Source of the DNA: Roseibium aggregatum
GTDB lineage: Bacteria; Pseudomonadota; Alphaproteobacteria; Rhizobiales; Stappiaceae
Assembly (NCBI RefSeq): GCF_017309185.1
Contig: NZ_JAEKJZ010000002.1
Span: 434,001-498,000 of the forward strand
Length of the DNA: 64,000 nt
Direction: 5' to 3'
Under the pieces are notes generated by a model. That model had not been told where the DNA came from. It ran no database searches and saw only the letters and a program-made list of their open reading frames with translations. A program made the position numbers and the translations under genes. Positions within the stretch are counted from its first letter, which is position 1. Each line of letters begins with the position of its first letter. This document shows positions 4,039 through 9,500 of this stretch, one piece after another.

Positions 4039-4209
4039 GGCATTCTTGGCCAACCGGTTTCGCTTCGGCTCCAAATCCGCCCGCGTTTTTTCCAGTGTCG
4101 CGAAAGCTCCGGCTGACAGGGTCGCCTTTTGGGCAATTGGGCTCTTGCCCATGCGCCCCTATCTCAAGGAAAGTGCTGCCCGACCGATTGGGACACCCTG
4201 GAGGCCTAC

Positions 4210-5487
4210 ATGACGATTCTCGGTGACTTGCTGTCGACCCTTTTTGAACGCCGGTACCGCAGGGCGGCGCTCGAACGGCCCGATTCGAGGTCCCTGGACG
4301 AACTGATCAATGCGCTGGTCGGTGCAACCGGAGAGATCTCGGGTCAATCCGCCGCGTTCCACATCCTGCAACGCTATCAGGACATGGACGACAGCGCCAA
4401 GCTCGGCTTTTTTCATCATATCGCCGCCGACATGAACATCGACCCGGACAAGGTCCGCGCCGCCCTTGACGCCTACGAGGCCGCTCCCGGTAAGCACACC
4501 TACCGAGCTTTCATGACCGCGGTCGAACCGGATAGGCAGGAGCTGATCCGGCGTCTCAATCAGGTGCCTCGCGCCACCGAGGCCCTGGTGCGCATGCGCG
4601 CCGACCTCATCCGCCTGGGCGGCGGCGACAACGAGCTTCAGGCGCTCGACCAGGACTTCCGCCACCTGTTCGTGTCCTGGTTCAATCGCGGCTTTCTGGT
4701 CCTGCGGCCGATCAACTGGGAAAGCCCGGCGCATATCCTGGAAAAAATCATCGCCTATGAGGCCGTCCACGAAATCGCCAGCTGGGAGGACCTGCGCCGC
4801 CGGCTCGCGCCGGACGACCGCCGCTGCTTCGCCTTCTTCCACCCGTCCATGCCGGACGAACCGCTGATCTTCGTCGAGGTCGCGCTGACAGCCGACGTCC
4901 CCGGCTCGATCCAGGACCTGCTCGCCGAGGACCGGCCGCACGGCAGGGCCGACAGGGCCAGAACCGCCGTGTTCTATTCCATCTCCAACTGCCAGGCCGG
5001 GCTCGCGGGCATTTCCTTCGGCAACTCGCTGATCAAACAGGTCGCCTCCGACCTGGCCGCCGAGCTCCCCGGACTGAAGACCTTCGTCACCCTGTCGCCG
5101 ATCCCCGGCCTGACCAAATGGCTGGACAGTCAGGAGATCGCCTATGCCGGGGCCGACGCGAAACAGCTGCGAACGCTTGCCGCCCATTACCTCCTGTCCG
5201 CCAAGCGCAAGGACGGTCAGCCGCTCGACCCGGTGGCCCGGTTTCATCTGGGCAATGGCGCGCAGGTCCATGCCGTTCATGCGGATGCGGACATCTCCGA
5301 CAAAGGCCGCGCCCAGTCCGCCGGCGTCATGGTCAACTATCTCTACGACCTCGCCAAAGTCACCCAGAACCTCGAACGCTTCGCAGGCTCCCTGGAGATC
5401 GCCGCCTCCTCGGACATCCGCTCTCTGGACACAGCCGCCAAAAAACAGGACCTCAGGCCGCAGGAGAAGGAACTGGCGGTCGAGTGA
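4210..5487 (+). CDS. Malonyl-CoA decarboxylase
   Basis: This 425-residue enzyme converts malonyl-CoA to acetyl-CoA and CO2. The start at 4210 (MTILGDLL) is preferred because GGAGG lies five bases upstream; a longer frame from 4129 lacks such a site. The N-terminal half is helical. The C-terminal catalytic GNAT-fold part includes SISNCQAGLAGISFGN and TLSPIPGLTKWL, both hallmarks of the family. The length is normal for bacterial forms. It has no malonyl-CoA synthetase (MatB) or malonate carrier beside it, so it may remove malonyl-CoA rather than serve malonate use. It is the last gene before the AT-rich island. Confidence 0.93.
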   Translation: MTILGDLLSTLFERRYRRAALERPDSRSLDELINALVGATGEISGQSAAFHILQRYQDMDDSAKLGFFHHIAADMNIDPDKVRAALDAYEAAPGKHTYRAFMTAVEPDRQELIRRLNQVPRATEALVRMRADLIRLGGGDNELQALDQDFRHLFVSWFNRGFLVLRPINWESPAHILEKIIAYEAVHEIASWEDLRRRLAPDDRRCFAFFHPSMPDEPLIFVEVALTADVPGSIQDLLAEDRPHGRADRARTAVFYSISNCQAGLAGISFGNSLIKQVASDLAAELPGLKTFVTLSPIPGLTKWLDSQEIAYAGADAKQLRTLAAHYLLSAKRKDGQPLDPVARFHLGNGAQVHAVHADADISDKGRAQSAGVMVNYLYDLAKVTQNLERFAGSLEIAASSDIRSLDTAAKKQDLRPQEKELAVE

Positions 5488-6327
5488 CGCGCACACGCCC
5501 GGCGCGGCGCCTTAAGTCTCGTTGCAGGGCGGCCCGCCGTGCTCCAGCAGGTCTCCTCACGATTGCCTTCGCAAAAGAAAACCGTCGTGGGTTCCAGACT
5601 ACCGTGAGATCCAAACCCGTCGCCTCCGGCGCGCTCACGGAACCAGCATCGGTTCGACCGCTTCTAGAACTGTGAACGCGTCCCAGATCTCCCTGGGTGT
5701 CATCGTTTCCGTTGCCCCCGATGCGGTGGATCTGCAGAAGAAACCAAGCCAGCATATCCCGCTTTTGGAATAGGCAGAAGCTGGTATGGGATAATGGAAA
5801 AGCAGTTTCTATAAATTTCAAACTTAGGTAGCGTTAAAATCGGCAAATCCACCAAGTTTGAAATTAAAACCTGTTGATGAACACTATATATAATAGACCA
5901 ACGAAGACTATGTTTCATTTTAGGAGATGCCGCGTGCGACGGGGGGCGACATCACTCCCATAGATTGTCGGCCCGCCTTTTGGCCCACGCACTGGCGCTA
6001 TCGGTTACCGATACCTTCGGAGCTTCGTCGTAGGCGTCTTTCCAAACAGAAAATCTGTTGGTACGCCAACTTTGTTGAGTCTAGTTCCGATTGGCAAGGG
6101 CATCAATAGAAATCTCTACACACTTCGTAAAACTACCCAGGAAGCGCGAAACATCTACTTCCACTCTCTAATCCCACTTGCTAGCACACCTAGGACGAGC
6201 GAACTTTACAACCCGGTTGAAATTGAAGGACCAGGATACAACTCGATGAAATTCAAAATTAATAAAGCATTGACTGTGAGCCTCCTAATTTTAAAGATAC
6301 GTCGTTTGCTTGAGGATAAAACCTGTG
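5488..6327. other. Long non-coding left flank of AT-rich island
   Basis: No gene is supported in these 840 bases. The composition changes sharply from GC-rich to AT-rich at about 5750. A TATAAT-like hexamer lies at 5889-5894 but no well-spaced -35 box was seen. Short open frames at 5927-6109 and 6072-6353 lack ribosome sites and overlap the next gene or each other, so they are not called. The left edge of a transferred segment probably lies here. No tRNA, direct repeat or integrase was found by eye. Confidence 0.5.
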
Positions 6328-7020
6328 ATGGAAAATTCTTGGACCCAAGATGAGTTGGCAGAAGCTATCGAAGAGAAAACTAAAGATGTGTGGGAAAAAA
6401 ATCGAAACCCTCTTTTGCTCAGCGAACTAGGAATGGAGCTTTCGAAACAAAAGGGGGACTATCGAAGTGCAATCGCACCATTAAAGCTTAGGCAGTTCAT
6501 TGCCACTCAACTTTCCAGCAGAGTGGTTATAATCACCCACCCGACACAGCAACAAAAGATCGCACTCATACCATCTGGAGAGCAGTTTTCTTTTGACGAT
6601 ACTACCCAGAGGTCAACTAACAAAACCAATGAAAGCGAAAGGATTAAAGCTTCTATTTGGGCCGCCTTTGTAAAACCAATACCAGCAAATTCGACAAGGT
6701 ACTTGGATATAGCCGGGCAGGAATTGCGCTTCCAAGATGTACCAAGCAACTCCCCCCCTCCCAGTCAAACTTCAAAACAGATTCCATCTGGCCTCGTCAT
6801 AGATGGACGCAGCTCAAAGTATGACGCACAAGAAGTCGCAGATACAATCAAGACTTGGGCATCAAAAAACAACTTACCTGAAGAAAAACTTTATATTCGA
6901 GAACTCAAAACCAGGCCCCCTAAAAATAAATTCTTTGAAGTATTCCAAGGGCTGAGCGAAAGCGATTTGCGAAGGATACAAATACCATTTGATATCATAA
7001 TGAAATTGGCTCAAAAATGA
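6328..7020 (+). CDS. Hypothetical protein of AT-rich cassette, possible OST-HTH/LOTUS-like N-terminal region
   Basis: This is about 230 residues from ATG 6328; GTG 6325 or TTG 6310 are alternatives, and GAGG lies at 6312-6315. Residues about 25-85, with LLLSELGMELSKQ, KLRQFIATQL and VVIITHP, resemble the pattern of OST-HTH/LOTUS domains, small winged helices that bind RNA or partner proteins. This is a pattern match by eye, not a database hit. A Ser/Thr/Pro-rich linker (about 95-155) is followed by a C-terminal part with IKTWASKNNLPEEKLYIREL. The gene is AT-rich with codon use unlike its neighbours, suggesting horizontal acquisition. Its stop overlaps the next start (ATGA), so the two products are probably made together. 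Function unknown. Confidence 0.7.
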   Translation: MENSWTQDELAEAIEEKTKDVWEKNRNPLLLSELGMELSKQKGDYRSAIAPLKLRQFIATQLSSRVVIITHPTQQQKIALIPSGEQFSFDDTTQRSTNKTNESERIKASIWAAFVKPIPANSTRYLDIAGQELRFQDVPSNSPPPSQTSKQIPSGLVIDGRSSKYDAQEVADTIKTWASKNNLPEEKLYIRELKTRPPKNKFFEVFQGLSESDLRRIQIPFDIIMKLAQK

Positions 7021-7829
7021 AAATTTCTTTTATTTTACTGACAAATCAGAAAGATTTGAAAAAATATTTTTCCGTTACCGGTATCGGGATGGTTCCGAAG
7101 GAAATTCGTGAAAAGCATGGGGCAGATCATAAGTTTTTCACTAAGCCTCCCCATCTAGACGATTTAACGTATTGCTTAAAGATAAACAGAGAAAATCCAG
7201 ATTCAGCAATTGCAATTTTGTCAGATTCAGAATATCGATCAAATATTTTTGATTTAGAAGTACCAACAAGTATTCTTCAGGCGCGGGAACGTAACATTAA
7301 GACTGAATTGTCTCGCGTAATTACTTTCTGGATCAAAAGATTGAACTCCCTAGAACAGACTTTCAAACCAATGGGCAATCGTAAAGCTCTTTTACTGCCG
7401 TTTCCCAATTTCAAAGACACAACTGCGCAACAATTATGGTCATCCATAAACAAAAATCTGGGCGAAAGAACTTTTTCGTTAATTGTCGAAATAGAGAAAC
7501 TAGTTTCTCATTTAAGAGATAAAGAGTTTCCAAAAAAGAAAGGAGGATATCGCGACAAGTACTTCGTAGACGAACGTGGATATCATTTTCAGTATGGACA
7601 TGAAAGGCATTCTCGTCCCGTAGTTGAGGGAAATGGCCACACTGCGAAGTGCGCCTTCAACTCTCAGCTTCGCTTCGGTTTGCCGTACGACTTTGAGCGG
7701 CACTATAATCTCTCGCTCGAAGACAACAGAAATCTAAAAGGGCGACAATTCGTCAACTGTCACAATCAAACGCATACTGCTGAGAGTTGCGACCATCTAA
7801 ATATTTTTCCAAATAGTTTCATAAATTGA
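7017..7829 (+). CDS. Hypothetical protein with His/Cys-rich C-terminus, second gene of AT-rich cassette
   Basis: This is a 270-residue protein translationally coupled to the upstream gene by a 4-base ATGA overlap. No signal peptide or membrane segment is visible. The N-terminal half includes MKISFILLTNQKDLKKYF and is rich in Lys, Asn and Ile. The last 90 residues carry clustered His, Cys, Asp and Asn: KYFVDERGYHFQYGHERH, GNGHTAKCAFNSQLRFG and KGRQFVNCHNQTHT, ending HLNIFPNSFIN. Such clustering suggests a conserved catalytic or metal-binding core, possibly nuclease-like, but I do not recognise the family. A strong terminator follows six bases after the stop, closing a compact two-gene unit. 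Toxin, effector or defence roles are conjecture. Confidence 0.72.
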   Translation: MKISFILLTNQKDLKKYFSVTGIGMVPKEIREKHGADHKFFTKPPHLDDLTYCLKINRENPDSAIAILSDSEYRSNIFDLEVPTSILQARERNIKTELSRVITFWIKRLNSLEQTFKPMGNRKALLLPFPNFKDTTAQQLWSSINKNLGERTFSLIVEIEKLVSHLRDKEFPKKKGGYRDKYFVDERGYHFQYGHERHSRPVVEGNGHTAKCAFNSQLRFGLPYDFERHYNLSLEDNRNLKGRQFVNCHNQTHTAESCDHLNIFPNSFIN

Positions 7830-7834
7830 AATTG

Positions 7835-7860
7835 AAAATGGGCGCTAAAGCGCCCATTTT
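7835..7860 (+). terminator. Rho-independent terminator of the AT-rich cassette
   Basis: A perfect 11-base inverted repeat, AAAATGGGCGC (7835-7845) and GCGCCCATTTT (7850-7860), flanks a TAAA loop and ends in a T run. It starts six bases after the stop codon of the second cassette gene. Because the arms also supply an A run, it could terminate in both directions. Confidence 0.9.
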
Positions 7861-7882
7861 CGACTCAAATATCTAAGCTTAA

Positions 7883-8011
7883 CTACCTTGCACCGGTTCG
7901 GTAATGCCAGATCACGACGTAGTCGATCTTTCCGTCACCCGTCATCCCTGCAGTAGGCTCCCAAATGCTTACGGGCTGTAAGTTCCACTTGGGCGCATGC
8001 AAAGAGCTTTC
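7883..8011 (-). pseudogene. Possible C-terminal remnant of an unidentified gene
   Basis: On the minus strand a 42-codon open stretch between two stops reads protein-like: KWNLQPVSIWEPTAG, then GDGKIDYVVIWHYRTGAR and a TAG at 7885-7883. It begins directly after an in-frame TAA, has no start codon at its head and no ribosome site. The Trp/Tyr-rich, ordered character suggests the tail of a once longer gene, but I do not recognise the family and chance cannot be excluded. It lies just beyond the cassette terminator, in a 349-base stretch with no other gene. Confidence 0.3.
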
Positions 8012-8209
8012 TTAGATACGAGTTGTTTCAAACTCTGAACTGAAAGAGCCATACTCAGGCTGCGGAGTCAACAGCTACATAGAAGCCTGCTACATTTTTT
8101 AAAACGCGATCGGTTAACATTTAGTTCCGATAAACTTTTAGGCACCAAACAAAAAAGTATTTAGGAATCCTCCTCCTGAACGTCAATAGACGACTCTCGA
8201 GGCTTTCCA

Positions 8210-8558
8210 TCACTTCCCCTTCCCAACCAGCCGGTCATAAGCCGCCAGATCCACCAGCAGACAATGCTTCGGCACGCGTTGAATCTTCACGTTCCGGGCG
8301 TTCAGGCCACGCAGACCAGGTTTTCGGGGGCCCGTTCAGCGCCGTTGACCAGCCGCCTTCGAATAAATCGCTTTCCCGGAAGACCTTGTTCAAGGCCGGA
8401 TGCTTGCCGCTTGGCACGGCCAGGAACGGGCCGTTGCCCGGGCCTTCCGCCTTCAAAAGACCGCGGCCGGCGAGTGCCAGTTTTTCCTTGGTCCATTTCA
8501 GATCGATAAAGTGATCGTTGCTTTCGAATTCGACAGGAACCGCGGACCATAATCCGGC
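8210..8558 (-). pseudogene. Degraded gene fragment with frameshift and missing 5' end
   Basis: The minus strand from about 8558 reads as protein without a start codon (VPVEFESNDHFIDLKWTKEK, then GPFLAVPSGKHPALNKVFRE and DLFEGGWSTALNG). Near 8320 the coherent reading switches frame to GLRGLNARNVKIQRVPKHC and LLVDLAAYDRLVGKGK, then TGA at 8212-8210. The two halves read as one protein of about 115 residues interrupted by a single frameshift, with the N-terminus missing: the frame upstream is directly the stop codon of the LysR gene. The family is not recognised; the style is that of small accessory or phage-type proteins. It marks decay at the right edge of the AT-rich island. Confidence 0.6.
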
Positions 8559-9500
8559 TTATCCCTCTCCCCCCTCCTCCAGCGGCTCCTCCAGCCCCCT
8601 CGACAGGTCCGCGCTGCGGACGAGATCCAGAAACGCGGTCGCGGCCGGTGACAGTACGTGGCCGGCCCGCCAGATCACCCCGATCTGGCGCACCATTTCA
8701 GGAGCGCTCAGGCGGCGGTAGATCAGGCTGCCGGTTCGAAGCACCGGCAGGGTCAGCACCGGCAAGGCGGTAACGCCCAGGCCCTGGGACACGAATGCGC
8801 CGGCGGTGGCAAGATGGGCGACCTCGAAACGCGGCCGGAACAGCAGGTTCTGCTGTGAACAGGCCGCTTCGATCAGGTCGCGCACGCTGGTTCCCCGCGC
8901 CATGGCGACAAATGGCTGGCGGACGAGTTCTTCCCACGTGTAGCTGCGCGGCTCCGAAAGAGCACCTCCGGCGGCCCCCACGGCCACGAAACGGTCCGAC
9001 AGAAGATGGCGGAACGAAATCCTGTCCGATGTCTCCACAGCGCCTGCGGTGAACCCCAGATCCGCTTCCCCCTGCTCCACGCTGCGGATGACCTGATCCG
9101 ACAGGGCGTCGTTGATCTGCACGTCGATATCGGGATGCTCGGACAGGAAACGGGCGACGACGGAGGGCAACAGGCCTGCGGTGACGGACGGCAGGCCCGC
9201 GATGGTCAGCCGTCCCCGGTGCGCCGCCAGATAGGCGTCGAATTCCGCCCCCGCGTTGGCGGCGGTGTTCAACACGCGCTCCGCCAGCCGCAACAGGGTT
9301 TCGCCCTGCGGCGTGAGAGAGACATTACGTGTATCCCGGTTGAAAAGGCGCGTGCCCAGCCTTTCTTCCATCCGCGCGATCTGCCGGCTCAGCGCCGAGG
9401 CGGACAGGCCGATATCCTCGGCCACGGCGCGAAAGCCCGAACCGGAGGCGAGCGCACAGAACACGCGCAAATCATTCAAGTCGAATTTGTTGCGTTCCAT
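8559..9500 (-). CDS. LysR-family transcriptional regulator
   Basis: This 313-residue regulator has an N-terminal winged helix (residues 1-65: FDLNDLRVFCALASGSGFRA, then LSASALSRQIARMEERLGT) and a periplasmic-binding-like effector domain of about 220 residues. It is divergent from the TAXI-TRAP/AtuA operon and separated from it by 165 bases, the standard arrangement for a LysR protein controlling the neighbouring operon. An inverted repeat with a T-N11-A core overlaps its own start codon (9487-9507). The C-terminus ends in an acidic Gly/Glu tail that abuts the degraded gene. The effector is unknown, probably the imported compound or its CoA derivative. Confidence 0.92.
   Translation of the reverse strand: MERNKFDLNDLRVFCALASGSGFRAVAEDIGLSASALSRQIARMEERLGTRLFNRDTRNVSLTPQGETLLRLAERVLNTAANAGAEFDAYLAAHRGRLTIAGLPSVTAGLLPSVVARFLSEHPDIDVQINDALSDQVIRSVEQGEADLGFTAGAVETSDRISFRHLLSDRFVAVGAAGGALSEPRSYTWEELVRQPFVAMARGTSVRDLIEAACSQQNLLFRPRFEVAHLATAGAFVSQGLGVTALPVLTLPVLRTGSLIYRRLSAPEMVRQIGVIWRAGHVLSPAATAFLDLVRSADLSRGLEEPLEEGGEG

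Follow-up and report, generated by a model that had tools for sequence, protein, structure and literature searches.

A rare, mobile two-gene operon encoding a LOTUS-like protein and an unnamed two-domain partner, a candidate anti-phage defence module

Within a 64,000-nucleotide stretch of the Roseibium aggregatum genome (contig NZ_JAEKJZ010000002.1, positions 434,001 to 498,000; hereafter the window, numbered from its first letter) lies an AT-rich pair of genes, here termed A and B, that belongs to a horizontally mobile two-gene family (Table 1). Both genes are on the + strand, and B starts (ATG at 7017) within the end of A (TGA ending at 7020), giving the ATGA overlap that the original prediction, made by a model from the letters alone, had read at this locus. 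Called mechanically, the open reading frame (ORF) of A extends back to TTG 6310; we placed its start at ATG 6328, the point from which the alignment with the closest relative, L023, runs. A precedes B, adjacent and on one strand, in 25/25 tabulated pairs; the gap between them ranges from -4 to +14 bp in 24 of these and the 4-bp overlap occurs in 9/25, and in the remaining pair (L035) the B start is an arbitrary cut. The operon is closed by a perfect hairpin, AAAATGGGCGC-TAAA-GCGCCCATTTT, with a folding energy of -24.2 kcal/mol (z -7.8) that none of 200 shuffled sequences equalled. The perfect, strong terminator originally proposed here holds as far as the stable hairpin is concerned, but beyond the stem the + strand has just a short T-run, and a consensus terminator scan calls the hairpin on the - strand only.

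The pair (6328-7829) has a guanine-plus-cytosine (GC) content of 40.3% (42.4% for A and 38.4% for B alone) within a window of 60.6%. For comparison, 1480 segments of 1502 bases were sampled from 20 stretches of 20 kb (400 kb out of the 6.1-Mb genome); their GC content has a mean of 60.5%, a standard deviation of 2.9% and a minimum of 46.9%; not one of them is as AT-rich as the pair (z about -7). The GC content at third codon positions is 0.40 in A and 0.37 in B, as against 0.83 and 0.80 in two flanking genes measured. These values bear out the foreign-looking composition and codon use noted earlier for this segment. The AT-rich extent first given as 5750 to 7860 was right in its core but not in its end, as the stretch continues to about 8200.

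Table 1. Features of the A+B locus, in window coordinates
Feature	Position	Strand	Basis or remark
AT-rich foreign segment with the cassette	5755..8205	.	composition; loss of similarity to genus relatives
Gene A, 230 aa	6328..7020	+	ATG 6328 to TGA 7020; N-terminus LOTUS/OST-HTH-like; 'WAAF' domain in the middle; helical tail conserved at the C-terminus
LOTUS-like domain of A, residues 6-84	6343..6579	+	predicted winged helix
Extra middle domain of A (IW.AF.KP...R...)	6640..6900	+	common to L023, L035 and one L056 piece; by eye in L092, L097, L098
Gene B, 270 aa	7017..7829	+	ATG 7017 in the 4-base overlap with A
N-terminal receiver/Rossmann-like domain of B, residues 1-115	7017..7361	+	structure comparison
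C-terminal His/Cys domain of B, residues 170-270, putative effector	7524..7826	+	alignments
Perfect hairpin closing the operon, likely terminator	7832..7861	+	folding energy
Near-copy (34-36 bp) of DNA upstream of a presumed B12-type ribonucleotide reductase gene	5867..5902	+	426 bp 5' of A
Upstream flank: malonyl-CoA-decarboxylase-like chromosomal gene	end 5487		name from ORF reading
Downstream flank: LysR-type chromosomal gene	8559-9500		name from ORF reading

Relatives were gathered by scans of plasmid records, genome contigs, viral contigs and whole genomes. An ORF scan of loci L001-L028 and the window gave 29 places with a B match at E below 1e-7 (a thirtieth place, at E 0.065, was dropped). 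A adjoins B in 28 of these 29 places, comprising 27 with both genes on the same strand in the ORF scan and L009, a circular record opened inside A in which A was read in two parts; the contig of L022 is opened inside B. The sole exception, L002, is a fragment of B at a contig end. When duplicate DNA is removed (L001 is the window itself and L026 equals L014) the count becomes 26/27, and the later loci L034, L035, L055, L092 and L097 carry both genes as well. Rare co-occurrence, which had been named at the outset as the sign against a coupled system, was thus not what the relatives displayed. In L056 (CP101710.1, a record titled 'Synechocystis sp. B12'), at 4198-4984, A lies in pieces across frames and the frame of B is open.

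The family is rare, patchy and mobile. Using tblastn with B at E 0.01, we found matches in 12 of 72,556 plasmid records (Aeromonas, Komagataeibacter, Acinetobacter, Escherichia and Klebsiella) and in 0 of 50,697 phage records. A profile built from eight B proteins recovered six loci in viral contigs and at least 12 in genome contigs titled Rhizobium, Paracoccus, Granulicella, Pseudomonas and others, the latter count being a lower bound because that scan relied on one C-terminal motif. Scans of the viral contigs with single proteins gave no match, and later scans with alignments returned only contigs already known. Whole-genome scans, with the window genome counted, were positive in 2/398 genomes at the level of the phylum, 2/397 of the order and 2/289 of the class, the second in the class being a C-terminal fragment. 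These scans also yielded a more distant variant, L035, through which 18 plasmid records were reached (Klebsiella in 12 and Enterobacter in 3 cases; one record was already known). Near-identity searches of 5426 E. coli genomes found the two variants exclusively on plasmids, one in 5 genomes and the other in 2; the proteins of the E. coli plasmid pair have the accessions WP_001280081 and WP_000581111. Searching with the A domain gave 5/398 genomes, with B present in three (the window genome, G559 and G305); in the other two, A stands at a contig end in one, and in G363 A ends early, with no B in the approximately 430 bases before the contig end.

The two genes also diverge together. Pairwise distances among A proteins correlate with those among B proteins (r 0.87, n 24; r 0.72, n 20 with close copies dropped; equalled in 0/5000 permutations each), a correlation that in part reflects common descent of the entire locus, an effect still present in the permutation test. 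The ratio of non-synonymous to synonymous substitution (dN/dS) is 0.10-0.29 in six comparisons across three locus pairs. Between an E. albertii plasmid (L007) and the Klebsiella-type records L008, L009 and L022, whose plasmid backbones are unrelated to it, the main shared stretch runs from 37 bp before A to 5 bp after B. A second block of 390-400 bp, in which the annotations viewed place no gene, is shared as well: in L022 it follows B immediately, and in L007 it lies some 330 bp off. There is also a 130-bp match elsewhere. Because the shared stretch is limited mainly to A and B, there is no evident need for anything other than the two genes, although this leaves the downstream block unexplained. 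An upstream RNA antitoxin was considered and provisionally set aside: the main homology of L007 and L008 begins 37 bp 5' of A, Rfam gave no match at gathering scores, and a repeat search near the window pair found only short two-copy repeats.

Judging from its structure model, the small protein A most likely binds nucleic acid and has a winged helix of LOTUS/OST-HTH-like form. The AlphaFold2 model has a mean predicted local distance difference test score (pLDDT) of 86.6 and a predicted template-modelling score (pTM) of only 0.46, and its N-terminus adopts a winged-helix fold nearest to LOTUS domains in VIA-align comparisons, whose rows cover mostly residues 1-86. The OST-HTH profile of Pfam matches none of eight A members (up to E 1) nor six further A proteins, and we therefore call A LOTUS-like without assigning it to the LOTUS family. 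Foldseek finds no match to A in the PDB at E 0.001. The middle domain is missing from a short form of A, which accounts for 20 of the 22 proteins in alignment A4, whereas the tail motif DL..I.IP..VL.KL is conserved. The window protein matches no Pfam family up to E 10, no PADLOC family and no PHROGs entry; eight members produce only isolated, sub-threshold Pfam matches, one member each and mutually unrelated, and among the A proteins run in PADLOC, the L055, L035 and L023 copies belong to no family either.

Gene B encodes a protein of two domains, 269-297 aa across members, whose AlphaFold2 model has a pLDDT of 87.7 and a pTM of 0.85. Its N-terminal domain resembles a response-regulator receiver in fold and in having an Asp at the end of strand 3 (D70; D in 24 of 25 proteins and E in one). 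Receiver (CheY-like) domains are defined by a phosphorylatable Asp pocket, and despite the conserved D70 the window protein lacks, on inspection, the acidic pair after strand 1. In the C-terminal domain, H198, R219, H229 and N262 are conserved in 25/25 proteins; H208-x3-C212 and C248-H249, which could form a metal site, are partial, with differing losses in the two most distant proteins. This domain is named by no profile searched and has no sequence relative in the PDB up to E 10; structure comparison by VIA-align, with rows mostly at residues 1-152, barely covers its fold. Foldseek returned no match to B at E 0.001 in the PDB or BFVD, and no NYN/DUF88 profile of Pfam matched the window protein or eight members; NYN/LK-nuclease structures are not among the comparison rows shown, which again cover mostly residues 1-152. 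The window protein has no match in Pfam (up to E 10), PADLOC or PHROGs, the eight members give isolated, mutually unrelated one-member matches below threshold in Pfam and NCBIfam and none in PADLOC, and the L055 and L035 copies fall in no PADLOC family. A match of the window protein to an RxLR effector chain (E 0.0014) was not reproduced by the eight-member profile and was discarded.

Neither product had been recognised in the original prediction, and for named profile families this holds: both are without a Pfam, PADLOC or PHROGs match and appear as 'hypothetical protein' in the annotated records viewed, and none of the homologues looks like a housekeeping protein in Pfam, NCBIfam, PADLOC or those records. 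It does not hold for structure, as the models predict a LOTUS-like N-terminus for A and a receiver-like N-terminus for B. No description of the pair was found in the open-licence literature searched, accession WP_000581111 included, and A+B is in this sense an undescribed system, unnamed in the literature and libraries searched.

Copies of the pair are carried on small and conjugative plasmids, on prophage-type contigs and in regions with integrases (L011, L012 and L014). On a mobilizable plasmid of 4.6 kb, the listed genes are B, one hypothetical gene and three mobilisation genes, while A spans the start of the record; in three plasmid loci (L003, L005 and L007) there are replication or partition genes no more than a few kb from the pair. 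In the viral contig L028, the pair lies in antisense orientation, flanked by V (spike/baseplate) and S (tail completion), both identified by Pfam; this place corresponds to that of Orf30 in the gene list of P2-like phages excerpted from PMC3091744; that source names Z/fun, orf30 and the TO-region as places of horizontally acquired genes in these phages. In L025 and L027 the pair adjoins the tail tube and sheath genes and the upstream genes differ. Equating this position with the Z/fun site of P2 was rejected, as the ORF order puts the pair beyond the tail-tube gene. Comparison of L025:5234-7247 with L027:5107-7036 shows upstream cargo that is PLD-like in one and a weak metallo-beta-lactamase-fold match in the other, on related contigs, an apparent cargo-exchange site.

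To describe the neighbourhoods we ran PADLOC (2023 release) on 14 hand-picked neighbours, the counts standing without a background rate. Five of the 14, at three loci, matched below E 1e-100: GajA (1037.8 bits) and GajB (834.4 bits) of Gabija downstream of the pair in L055, a ThsB-type TIR protein in L006 (E 5e-110), and PDC-S06 (3e-120) and PDC-S37/Hhe (E 0) flanking the pair in L018, one on each side. L057 and L058 have the gene order and protein accessions of the L055 Gabija neighbourhood. A partial match to a Ppl-like ATPase was obtained in L011 (1e-30), weak matches in L025 (9e-8 and 0.008) and L027 (4e-10), and none for one neighbour each in L012, L014, L020, L023 and L027. In Novosphingobium (L092 and L093), the annotated upstream neighbour of the pair is a nucleotidyltransferase-HEPN gene, and BrnT/BrnA lie near the pair in L005. 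Beside the closest relative, about 1 kb downstream (L023:3847-4631), two small ORFs look HicA/HicB-like by eye. The suggestion that the pair might sit in defence islands agrees with some copies, which are found in defence neighbourhoods or mobile cargo sites; in L013, L016, L017, L021 and the window, read by eye, no defence gene was recognised.

In the window, similarity to genus relatives ends at about 5471-5478, the end of the upstream gene, and returns at about 8210. The decarboxylase-like gene is followed by the LysR and TRAP-type genes of the window in none of five relatives (about 11-14 kb fetched for each), and in one relative these latter genes are on another contig. We place the cassette at a breakpoint because similarity breaks there and the flanking gene order differs in the five relatives. 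Between the cassette and the LysR gene, a fragment at 8210-8480 is 76% identical to part of relative DNA (G862:C61) and is possibly a gene remnant at this breakpoint. The repeat at 5867-5902 is 94% identical over 34 bp to a site elsewhere in the same genome (L048, G000:C1:2485091-2485124), and 9 of 31 genomes of the genus, its own included, contain matches to it. It was rejected as an attachment site, as in five genomes inspected it lies, without a tRNA, upstream of a gene that we take to encode a B12-type ribonucleotide reductase; the repeat itself presumably resembles an NrdR box.

We propose that A+B is most likely an anti-phage defence module, a reading to which we give about an even chance. 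The linkage in 28/29 places, the mobility and the defence neighbours of some copies are in keeping with the toxin-antitoxin- or phage-defence-like character first suggested for the pair, and we infer the function itself from such sequence context. A would recognise an RNA, or other nucleic acid, signal through its winged helix and would hold, guide or license B. B, with its receiver-like domain, a helical linker and the C-terminal H-R-H-N and His/Cys domain, would be the effector, acting as a nuclease or in another way that modifies nucleic acid, and would be set free or directed upon infection. Like PARIS, which the excerpted text of PMC9122126 describes from P2/P4 hotspots, the pair is a compact two-gene cassette carried as cargo by temperate phages and mobile elements; unlike PARIS, it has no ATPase/TOPRIM profile match and no PADLOC match, and its P2-like copy lies between V and S (orf30) and not in the gpA-gpQ hotspot of that text. 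In a more far-reaching version, A would be a LOTUS-like RNA reader standing on its own that senses foreign or structured RNA and then sets B free, and the C-terminal H-R-H-N and His/Cys domain of B would be a nucleic-acid-cutting fold not recognised before; such a new class of immunity is speculative and in our judgement rather unlikely.

Type II toxin-antitoxin systems generally pair a small upstream nucleic-acid-binding gene with an overlapping or abutting effector, and A+B shares this layout in having the small gene first, adjacent to and overlapping B on one strand. An addiction module, in which B would be a toxin with RNA as its probable target and A both its antitoxin and a winged-helix autorepressor whose tail masks B, is accordingly the main rival, if a tentative one; the conserved tail of A, the BrnT/BrnA genes close to the pair in L005 and the nucleotidyltransferase-HEPN gene close to it in L092 are consistent with it, and the copy on the tiny 4.6-kb plasmid favours addiction. 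B, however, is two-domain and, in our judgement, large for a classical toxin, and the defence neighbours and cargo sites favour immunity, though the architecture of many defence systems is itself that of a toxin-antitoxin pair. The two readings overlap and are not mutually exclusive, and sequence alone cannot separate them. That the pair serves plasmid or prophage maintenance or regulation, such as copy control or as a partition accessory, with neither toxicity nor immunity, would fit the replication and partition genes of the three plasmid loci; it seems improbable given the copies on large contigs (the window, L013, L016 and L018) whose ORFs, by eye, include no such neighbours, and given the L028 copy among phage tail genes.

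LOTUS domains of animals, plants and bacteria are reported to bind G-quadruplex RNA (PMC12247748, citing Ding 2020, in excerpt). According to the excerpted text of PMC2848206, bacterial OST-HTH domains are almost all fused to LK-nuclease (DUF88), are sporadic in bacteria and are proposed to recruit RNA to the nuclease. A+B shares with that arrangement a LOTUS-like winged helix, a putative nucleic-acid-acting partner and a sporadic distribution, and could be a split, two-gene version of such an RNA-decay module acting on host RNA. We consider this hardly likely, as the domain is here a separate upstream gene, A has no DUF88/LK-nuclease Pfam domain, B has no NYN/DUF88 profile match and a different, His/Cys C-terminal domain, and the sporadic distribution is not that of a housekeeping function.

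The pair is missing from the 2023 PADLOC defence catalogue, and its plasmid hosts include Escherichia, Klebsiella, Enterobacter, Acinetobacter and Aeromonas. If it does confer immunity, the known repertoire would gain a sensor of LOTUS-like type together with an effector domain that is so far unnamed; and should the new class of immunity prove true, it would tie the LOTUS-based RNA control of the animal germ line to a prokaryotic immune module.
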